From Candidatus Hydrogenedentota bacterium (GTDB lineage: Bacteria; Hydrogenedentota; Hydrogenedentia; Hydrogenedentales; JAEUWI01): DNA of 64,000 nucleotides. The notes beneath the pieces are model-generated. The model was given only the letters and a program-made list of their open reading frames with translations, was not told the DNA's origin and made no database searches. Location: the NCBI GenBank assembly GCA_019637335.1, contig JAHBVV010000022.1, forward strand, positions 1 through 64,000, written 5' to 3'. Of the stretch, positions 19,455-21,790 are shown piece after piece (positions within the stretch are counted from its first letter, which is position 1; every line of letters begins with the position of its first letter). The translations under genes were made by a program, and so were the position numbers.

Positions 19455-20468
19455 ATGACTGAGTTTGTTCGCCGGATCGCCCTGGGAGCGGCCGTGACCG
19501 CCCTGTTCTCCACGGCCGCGCTGGCCGCGGGCATCACGTACGAGGGGGGCGAGGGCCCCGGAAAAGGCAAGCACATTGTGTTTGTCACGGGCGACGAGGA
19601 ATACCGCTCGGAGGAGGGCATGCCCCAGCTGGCGAAGATCCTGGCGGTGCGCCACGGCTTCAAATGCACGGTGCTGTTTTCCATCAACAAGGAAACCGGC
19701 GAAATCGACCCGGGCACGCTGGACAACATCCCGGGCCTGGAGGCGCTGCGGGATGCCGACCTGATGGTGCTGTTCACCCGCTTCCGCGAACTGCCGGACG
19801 CGGACATGAAGCATATTGTGGATTACACCAACTCCGGGCGCCCGATCATTGCGCTGCGCACGGCGACCCACCCCTTCTTTTACCGGGAGAACCCGGACAG
19901 CCCCTACGCGAAATGGACCTGGAACAACCCCGATCCGGATTTCCAGGGCGGCTACGGGCGCCAGGTGCTCGGCGAAACGTGGGTGAGCCACTACGGCAAA
20001 CACGGCACGGAAAGCACCCGGGGCGAGATCGTGCCGGAGATGAAGGACCACCCCATCGTTCAAGGCTGCGAGGACATCTGGGGGGACACGGATGTGTACG
20101 GGATCAACAGCCTGACCGGGGACAGCCAGCCGCTGGTGAACGGCATCGTGCTTACCGGCATGAACCCGGACGACCCGCCCGGCACGGAGAAGACCGAGAA
20201 GCAGCCGATCGCGTGGATCAAGACCTGGACCGGGGAGTCCGGAACGCCCGCCCGCGTATTCACCACGACCATGGGCGCCTCGCGGGACCTGCTGAGCGAG
20301 GGCCTGCGCCGCTTGCTGGTGAACGCGGCGTACTGGTGCACCGGGCTGGAAGAGCAGATCCCGCCCCGCGCGAACGTCGATATCGTCGGCGAATACAACC
20401 CGACGCCATTCGGCTTCAACGAACACCAGAAAGGCCTCAAGCCCGAAGACCACGCCCTGGCGGAATAG
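19455..20468 (+). CDS. Secreted ThuA-like domain protein
   Basis: The 337-residue protein has a signal peptide ending ...ALAAG. The class I glutamine amidotransferase-like ThuA fold shows in 'KHIVFVTGDEEYRSEEGMPQLAKILA', 'ALRDADLMVLFTRFRELPDADMKHIVDYTNSGRPIIALRTATHPF' and 'HPIVQGCEDIWGDTDVYG'. ThuA-like proteins are linked to sugar metabolism and often occur in secreted forms in planctomycete-like genomes; the biochemical role is unsettled. The C-terminal 'ARVFTTTMGASRDLLSEGLRRLLVNAAYW' is a common ending of this secreted subgroup. The gene ends 2 bp before a direct repeat. Confidence 0.82.
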   Translation: MTEFVRRIALGAAVTALFSTAALAAGITYEGGEGPGKGKHIVFVTGDEEYRSEEGMPQLAKILAVRHGFKCTVLFSINKETGEIDPGTLDNIPGLEALRDADLMVLFTRFRELPDADMKHIVDYTNSGRPIIALRTATHPFFYRENPDSPYAKWTWNNPDPDFQGGYGRQVLGETWVSHYGKHGTESTRGEIVPEMKDHPIVQGCEDIWGDTDVYGINSLTGDSQPLVNGIVLTGMNPDDPPGTEKTEKQPIAWIKTWTGESGTPARVFTTTMGASRDLLSEGLRRLLVNAAYWCTGLEEQIPPRANVDIVGEYNPTPFGFNEHQKGLKPEDHALAE

Positions 20469-20470
20469 GG

Positions 20471-20546
20471 CAAGGGGGACCGCATGGGGCGGGCAGGTGT
20501 GCGAGTTCCCATAATACAGGATCCCGAACCAGCCAGAGGCTGTGCC
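20471..20546. repeat. Left copy of direct repeat flanking toxin-antitoxin cassette
   Basis: About 76 bp starting CAAGGGGGACCGCATGGGGC and ending near GGCTGTGCC recur in the same orientation at 21328-21403 with roughly 80 percent identity. The second block, GGGCAGGTGTGCGAG, is identical in both. The left copy starts immediately after the ThuA-like gene, and the right copy immediately after the antitoxin gene. Confidence 0.8.
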
Positions 20547-20552
20547 TTGGCA

Positions 20553-20581
20553 TTGACTGAATACACCATTTCAGGTATAGT
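20553..20581 (+). promoter_or_regulatory. Strong sigma-70-like promoter of the toxin-antitoxin pair
   Basis: TTGACT (20553-20558) and TATAGT (20576-20581) are separated by exactly 17 nt, each matching five of six consensus positions. They sit 36 nt before the toxin start and just inside the left direct repeat. Antitoxin autoregulation at this site would be usual for the family. Confidence 0.7.
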
Positions 20582-20616
20582 TCTTCTGTGCTCAATTAAA
20601 AACTGGGGGCGCACGC

Positions 20617-20958
20617 ATGAAGGAACTGTCATTCGAATTTGATACCCGAAAGCGTCTGAAAGCGTTCCCCTATGATGTCCGACGAGAGGTAGCACATGCA
20701 CTATACGAGGCACAGCGAGGCGGAAAACACGAGAAGGTAAAGGTCCTCACCGGGTTTCATGGCGCGGGCGTACTGGAGATCCGGGACCGGTACGAGGGTT
20801 GTGCCTATCGCGTTTTCTATACGACGCTGATCCCATCTCGAATATGTATTTTGCACGCGGTTAAGAAGAAGTCGAAGCGAGGAATCTCCACGCCCAAACA
20901 AGAACTTGACCTGCTCCGGCAACGCTTGATCGCGACCAGAGAGAAATATGGCGGTTGA
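20617..20958 (+). CDS. RelE/HigB-superfamily toxin (phage Gp49-like)
   Basis: The 113-residue basic protein fits the Gp49-like/HigB toxin family: 'LKAFPYDVRREVAHALYEAQRGG', 'VKVLTGFHGAGVLEIRDRYEGCAYRVFYT' and 'RICILHAVKKKSKRGISTPKQELDLLRQRL'. Such toxins are mRNA interferases that act on the ribosome. It is the first gene of a toxin-first pair, with the HTH antitoxin starting 27 nt after its stop. The promoter is strong, the ribosome site (GGGGG) modest. The cassette is bracketed by direct repeats, so recent acquisition is plausible. Confidence 0.88.
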   Translation: MKELSFEFDTRKRLKAFPYDVRREVAHALYEAQRGGKHEKVKVLTGFHGAGVLEIRDRYEGCAYRVFYTTLIPSRICILHAVKKKSKRGISTPKQELDLLRQRLIATREKYGG

Positions 20959-20985
20959 CAATATCCGCCTTGGGAGTAACACACC

Positions 20986-21327
20986 ATGAATCAGGCCAGG
21001 GACAGTCGGACTCGGGATACCATGGTGGAGCGTTGTGGGAACGTTTTTGCGGACTTGGGAATCAGAAATCCCGAGCTGGCAAGACTGAAGGCCGATGTCG
21101 CCATCGAAATAAAAGCGGCCATCGAACGTCGGGGGATTACCCAGAAAGAGGCCGGGAAACTCCTCGGCCTGCCGGCGCAAAAGGTAAGCGATATCGTCTG
21201 CGGGCGCCTGAAAGGCTATACCCTCGATCGCCTTTTCACCTACCTGAACCGCTTGGACATCGACGTGTACGTCAGGATGGCTTCCAAGCCGGCGCGGCGC
21301 GAGAAGGCCGAATTGCGGGCTGTTTAA
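20986..21327 (+). CDS. HTH (XRE/HigA-like) antitoxin
   Basis: The 113-residue protein has an XRE-type helix-turn-helix at about residues 45-90 ('KAAIERRGITQKEAGKLLGLPAQKVSDIVCGRLKGYTLDRLFTYLNRL'), the pattern of antitoxins paired with Gp49-like toxins. It should bind and neutralise the toxin and repress the promoter at 20553. GGGAG lies 9 nt before ATG 20986. The N-terminal 40 residues are probably the toxin-contact region. The right direct repeat begins directly at the end of the gene. Confidence 0.9.
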   Translation: MNQARDSRTRDTMVERCGNVFADLGIRNPELARLKADVAIEIKAAIERRGITQKEAGKLLGLPAQKVSDIVCGRLKGYTLDRLFTYLNRLDIDVYVRMASKPARREKAELRAV

Positions 21328-21403
21328 CAAGGGGACCGCATCGGGCGGGCAGGTGTGCGAGCTCCCGTGATTCAGAATCCCGCACCGGCCCAAGGCTCTG
21401 CCC
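21328..21403. repeat. Right copy of direct repeat flanking toxin-antitoxin cassette
   Basis: This is the direct copy of 20471-20546, starting CAAGGGGACCGCATCGGGC and ending in GGCTCTGCCC. It starts one base after the antitoxin stop. The two copies enclose about 780 bp that hold only the promoter and the two genes. Confidence 0.8.
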
Positions 21404-21790
21404 CCCAAGCCCCCTCCGCTCGCCTGGCCGCCGCGAATTGAATAAACCGCGCGCTCCCGCGTCCGTTTCCGCGAAGACACGGTAGTTCCCGTATCGGGAC
21501 GGGCGCCCTGTAACAAAGGGCTGCCCCAGTGGTATCCCTTAGCAGGACACCCCCGGGCCAGGGGGGAAGAGGAGCGCAGGCGGACCATGTTTGAGGCGAT
21601 CGCGGAATCGACCCAGTCGACGGTGGACATGTTGTTGCGGCTGTTTGGCGGCGCCTTCCGGAGGGCGGGGCGGCTTATCCGGGGGCGGTAGCGGCGTCCA
21701 TCGGGCCGGTGGCGGGCGCCGGGATCCTGTGCGCGTTGCGGGGCCGCCCGGGAAATGGATGGCGTGAGGGCCAGAGGGGACCGATTGCGG
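21404..21790. other. Intergenic stretch without a supported gene
   Basis: This holds short GC-rich inverted repeats around 21500-21530 and a 34-codon frame at 21587-21691 (MFEAIAESTQ..., with GAGGAG upstream) that I do not accept as a gene on present evidence. I see no promoter of quality. It may be decayed repeat material adjoining the right direct repeat. Confidence 0.4.

Follow-up and report, generated by a model that had tools for sequence, protein, structure and literature searches.

A HigBA-like operon between two decayed copies of a dispersed palindromic repeat in a Hydrogenedentota genome

In a stretch of 64,000 nucleotides from a Candidatus Hydrogenedentota bacterium (contig JAHBVV010000022.1, hereafter the window), a HigBA-like toxin-antitoxin operon and its predicted promoter lie exactly between two direct repeats. 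A first-pass annotation had seen in this arrangement a toxin-antitoxin cassette, open to loss or gain by recombination between the repeats, or else an insertion beside an existing repeat. The exact framing, the empty sites in relatives and the plausibility of an insertion beside an existing repeat have stood; the repeats as cassette ends have not. We conclude that the frame is probably a by-product of repeat multiplication and not a dedicated toxin-antitoxin cassette, and that the operon most likely landed among direct siblings, copied by a RAYT, behind a ThuA-like gene. Hereafter, G000 denotes the window's own genome, and G001, G002, G003, etc., the related genomes compared.

The framed operon and its borders

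A repeat search of the window delimits a gapless core of 72 nt in both copies (20475-20546 and 21331-21402), 85% identical and with a start-to-start distance of 856, while the bounds set by the covariance model R1, described below, give 81% identity in a global alignment (Table 1). The size and likeness first proposed for the repeats framing the pair and its promoter, about 76 bp and about 80%, were thus right within a few bases. Each copy retrieves the other at E=2e-16 in a whole-genome search, which rules out a chance similarity of the two. The borders are as tight as had been claimed: the stop codon of the ThuA-like gene, with its last letter at 20468, is 4 nt ahead of copy 1, and that of the antitoxin gene, with its last letter at 21327, is 1 nt ahead of copy 2. 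The promoter-like site begins at 20553, 3 nt beyond copy 1. The GC content of the operon is 53%, against about 63% in its surroundings.

Table 1. Features of the framed locus and its flanks (positions in the window)
Feature	Position	Strand	Support
ThuA-like gene, 337 aa	19455..20468	+	PF06283 ThuA E=7.4e-8, 33.3 bits vs cut-off 33.4
Repeat copy 1, decayed member of the dispersed GGGGACTGC palindromic family	20473..20549	+	R1 37.1 bits, E=2.1e-6 in window
Predicted sigma-70-like promoter, TTGACT-N17-TATAGT	20553..20581	+	10/12 consensus matches; 0.5 expected in shuffles
Toxin gene, Gp49/HigB type, 113 aa	20617..20958	+	PF05973 Gp49 E=8.6e-18
Antitoxin gene, HTH_37 (HigA type), 113 aa	20986..21327	+	PF13744 HTH_37 E=5.1e-15
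Repeat copy 2, same family, decayed, direct orientation	21329..21405	+	R1 43.1 bits, E=8.2e-8 in window
Small conserved ORF, 34 aa, MFEAIAESTQSTVDMLLRLFGG..., right landmark of the empty site	21587..21691	+	Homologous 34-35 aa ORFs 3' of ThuA in G002 and G003

The operon unites a Gp49/HigB toxin domain (PF05973) and an HTH antitoxin domain (PF13744), both over cut-off. It shares with type II systems of the HigBA type (Gp49/PF05973 with HTH_37) a toxin gene that comes first, a toxin of the small RelE-like family, an Xre-type antitoxin, and a promoter of its own, and differs from them in location only. Known here from its genes, it would work as an ordinary type II toxin-antitoxin module. The search for a named relative of the toxin gave one weak match in the contig scan and none among solved structures; its nearest homologue is 51% identical. 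A HigA-type antitoxin paralogue, with 70% DNA identity to the window antitoxin over 283 nt, is found in G000 (C7:159330-159710), with no repeats nearby and no obvious adjoining toxin gene in the listed frames.

A dispersed repeat family and a RAYT gene embedded in it

Weak partial matches of the window copies elsewhere in the genome led to full-length relatives, 25 of which, the window copies being excluded, form the family alignment on which R1 is based. The family is an imperfect palindrome of about 75 bp. Aligned together with flanks, the units span 76-79 nt, and the consensus reads GGGGACTGCATC(C/G)GGC(T/G)GGC, a variable middle of about 33 nt, and CC(A/C)GCC(G/C)G(T/A)GGCTGTACCCC. The arms pair with each other except for a constant T-T mismatch and one additional A, and 91% of the cells in the family arms are paired. 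They also covary at three stem positions: both sides have changed together in 26 cases, while shuffles give 9.3 such double changes and sliding the partner gives none to three. None of 500 shuffles reaches the observed value.

In the 64-kb window, R1 has exactly two matches, i.e., the two framing copies. Over the whole genome, it finds at least 117 copies at E up to 0.002 (a lower bound, with 150 candidates scored and covariance-model E-values that are rough), in at least 42 clusters and on both strands. This count, which the first-pass annotation had proposed to make, is largely what it had named as the contrary case, i.e., a widespread repeat family not associated with cassettes. Indeed, a model built without the window copies recovers mostly arrays with nothing between their units, which speaks against a role of the repeats as ends of a cassette. 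Both window copies rank near the bottom of the members listed (43 and 37 bits, against 89 for the best) and their arms pair poorly, which points to old copies.

Several features indicate that the copies multiply locally as direct siblings. Among the matches listed, 196 of the 204 copy pairs less than 6 kb apart are direct, the median identity of local pairs is 91-94% against 69% for all pairs, and 87 of the 101 copies that have a neighbour find in it their best match. Such a local multiplication as direct siblings has been described for REPIN clusters (PMC3116915). The two window copies are, again among the matches listed, each other's best match (81%), the next best being at 73% and 69%. Most neighbouring copies are less than 200 bp apart and the arrays are mostly empty between copies; a dozen gaps, from 0.6 to 7 kb, enclose genes, including those for the RAYT, a WG-repeat protein, PQQ-like proteins, lipoproteins, and others. 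A repeat abutting a stop codon is usual as well, since in 22 of 53 clusters the stop codon of a long open frame is no more than 30 nt away from an edge. Pairs of direct siblings are the normal state of this family, and the direct frame around the window operon is unremarkable for it.

Two side observations concern these arrays. On C6, C35, and C19, the intervals between copies repeatedly hold lipoprotein-like paralogues that have PQQ/SBBP-like repeats (FDGGYILAG-type motifs), which suggests segmental duplication through repeat arrays. A further dispersed element, a stretch around CTCAATGGATGACGCAACGCGTCATGAGC and AAGGAAGCGGCAAAGGCTGGGAGCGCAGG, is seen 3' of several repeat copies.

The family is linked to a transposase gene. 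Among the twelve Y1 transposase matches of G000, the RAYT gene at C3:67017-67649 (PF01797 over cut-off at C3:67287-67610) lies between direct copies, three upstream and three downstream, the nearest being 17 nt from the gene end. Its product, of 211 aa, contains MPNHVHI and YVELNPVRAG, i.e., the HUH and Y...LNP motifs, and matches the REP-associated tyrosine transposase model NF047646 at E=4.9e-18 with 65.4 bits, below the cut-off of 80. RAYT homologues in G005, G018, G022, and G057 have R1-type elements on both sides; the gap that encloses the gene measures 912 bp in G000 and 836 bp in G005. In G002, the closest homologue (56%) is inside an array of that genome's own 104-nt variant, GGGGACTGCCTCGCCC...GGCGGGGCTGTCCCC, for which a second model gives about 126 matches in G002 among the matches listed. 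Around the RAYT gene of G000 (C3:66500-68700), copies of the main repeat alternate with a palindrome of a second type, GGGGACTGGCTCCCGAGCCCC...CCTGTACCCG, which lies on the opposite strand. The earlier remark that no transposase is present holds beside the operon and fails for the genome, where a RAYT gene stands elsewhere amid copies of this family. Given this linkage and the published cases, the family probably owes its spread to a single-strand transposase that is encoded separately.

As judged from arms and gene context, the closest published kind would be the TIR repeats of TIRYT/RAYT genes. TIRtrons consist of RAYT-like genes (TIRYT, TIR-associated tyrosine transposases) flanked by inverted repeats with GGGGWSAS, and some TIR repeats are dispersed as families, as single, dimeric, or clustered elements (Di Nocera et al. 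2013, PMC3733652). Likewise, the repeats described here are inverted repeats with GGGG-type ends, flank a Y1 tyrosine transposase gene on both sides, and are dispersed in many copies. The G002 right arm, GGGGACAG, fits GGGGWSAS exactly, and the G000 arms, GGGGACTG and GGGGTACAG, are one step away each. Unlike a TIRYT, the G000 transposase, at 211 aa, has no detected HTH tail. With the REPINs and REPs of RAYTs (Bertels and Rainey 2011, PMC3116915; Nunvar et al. 2010, PMC2817692), the family has in common short palindromic extragenic units in high copy number, tandem direct arrays of units near-identical including their flanks, clusters beside a RAYT gene, and covarying stems. However, the two halves of its units are not the same REP inverted. 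Moreover, canonical REPs have GT(A/G)G at the hairpin foot (PMC2817692, PMC6006769). This head is absent from the consensus arms GGGGACTGC and GGCTGTACCCC, and we have therefore not filed the family as REP or REPIN.

The locus behind ThuA in related genomes

The gene order TPR, lepB-like, rhomboid, DnaJ, and ThuA is kept in three congeners (G001, G002, and G003), whose ThuA orthologues are 76-81% identical. Behind ThuA, none of the three has the operon or an R1 match. The empty sites that the first-pass annotation had suggested looking for do exist: in G002, a stretch of 280 bp, free of the repeat and of toxin-antitoxin genes, separates the ThuA stop from a conserved 35-aa ORF, while the corresponding distance in the window is 1118 bp, or 185 bp once the framed block is subtracted. 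In G003, a 244-aa PEP-CTERM-like gene fills the gap, and in G001 different genes follow ThuA. These differing contents indicate that the gap accepts inserts, and the absences in congeners that operon and repeats are both specific to the window lineage among the genomes seen.

The single repeat that recombination between the copies would leave was also searched for at this site. R1 finds no single copy or repeat-only site behind ThuA in G001, G002, G003, or G018, and elements of the G002-variant kind occur at none of 29 ThuA loci. The longest identical run between the two window copies is 19 nt; given the minimal length of a RecA substrate, present-day homologous recombination between them is unlikely to be efficient.

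The small ORF that serves as right landmark deserves a mention of its own. Frames of 34-35 aa (MFEAI/S..STQS.VDM.LR..G) are conserved 3' of ThuA in the window genome, G002, and G003, with a short conserved GGTAT.. about 45 nt upstream, and would be candidates for an unannotated small protein or a leader.

Origin of the frame

The course of events that we favour would start from a single-strand transposase of RAYT/TIRYT type, encoded elsewhere in the genome, copying small palindromic repeats in trans. The family that it copies would habitually build direct sibling arrays just downstream of genes, and one sibling pair would have lain, or come to lie, behind the ThuA-like gene. The HigBA-like operon, with its own promoter, would then have ended up in the gap between the siblings.

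Are toxin-antitoxin operons tied to such frames? A general association of the repeat with HigB-like loci was rejected. Indeed, no repeat copy lies near the four other Gp49-type loci of G000 (C1, C2, C8, and C10), and 17 of the 18 other HigB-like loci, counted over G000 and its relatives, are without the repeat. The framed one is in G002 (C413:2049), where a HigBA homologue, with a toxin 42% identical to that of the window, lies between two G002-family elements (C413:1653-2948); these are in inverted orientation, and the left one overlaps the upstream stop codon. In G000, another direct repeat frame (C2:284102-285201) encloses a 104-aa ORF of no known family, then the gene of an HTH protein that matches the MqsA type weakly (TIGR03830, 26.8 bits, cut-off 61.8, E=3.5e-6), possibly an unrecognised toxin-antitoxin pair. 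About a dozen short frames in two congeners thus hold two HigBA-like pairs, one possible MqsA-like operon, and, in two cases, the RAYT itself. The C413 and C2 frames might mean that the repeats and such operons come together by more than coincidence, on cases that are few and chosen after the fact. Toxin-antitoxin operons gather in permissive gaps anyway. Searches of the literature on toxin-antitoxin operons with REPINs returned nothing relevant.

These cases bear on the idea of a composite mobile unit, in which the repeats would be ends and either the RAYT would move the block in trans or arrays would exchange blocks by recombination. The RAYT gene sitting in the same geometry, with its gaps of 912 and 836 bp in G000 and G005, the G002 HigBA homologue between two elements of its own family with one of them overlapping the upstream stop, the lower GC content of the operon, and the congeners without the block would all suit such a unit. 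We nevertheless consider it unlikely, because only one of 18 other HigB-like loci is framed and none of the four others in G000, because the G002 pair is inverted and not direct, because no second repeat-flanked copy of the operon was found (the 51% homologue being the nearest to its toxin), and because the arms of the flanking copies have decayed. The broader proposal that toxin-antitoxin operons are a recurrent cargo of RAYT/TIRYT repeat pairs, with transposase or inter-array recombination moving repeat-operon-repeat blocks, seems to us quite improbable.

Two members of the same subfamily could also have inserted independently on either side of a pre-existing operon. The family favours places just after stop codons, and a WG-repeat gene is enclosed by two direct copies, 1.5 kb apart (C3:312328 and 313948), of a related subfamily whose spacer is partly similar. 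However, the two window copies are much closer to each other than to any other listed copy, as local duplicates would be, and the congeners are without the operon too; we hold this course to be unlikely. As for an integron gene cassette with attC-like repeats, it has the likeness of one repeat behind each reading frame, after the stop codon, and integrons are known to carry toxin-antitoxin cassettes. Its probability is nonetheless negligible. No attC core site (RYYYAAC/GTTRRRY) occurs in either copy on either strand, the one match close by falls across the antitoxin stop, and such matches are no commoner than by chance; no integrase is over the curated cut-off in the genome (the best TIGR02249 match has 89 bits against 265); and the family is scattered over at least 42 clusters on both strands. 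This candidate was rejected on the missing cores and the lack of an integrase over cut-off.

Multiplication of the repeats as direct siblings thus replaces an apparent toxin-antitoxin cassette by an ordinary cause. It also supplies, for a poorly known bacterial lineage, a well-supported repeat family and its probable transposase, of which sister species carry different repeat variants. If toxin-antitoxin operons were enriched in such frames, this would offer a simple route of spread for small operons of this kind that have no linked transposase.
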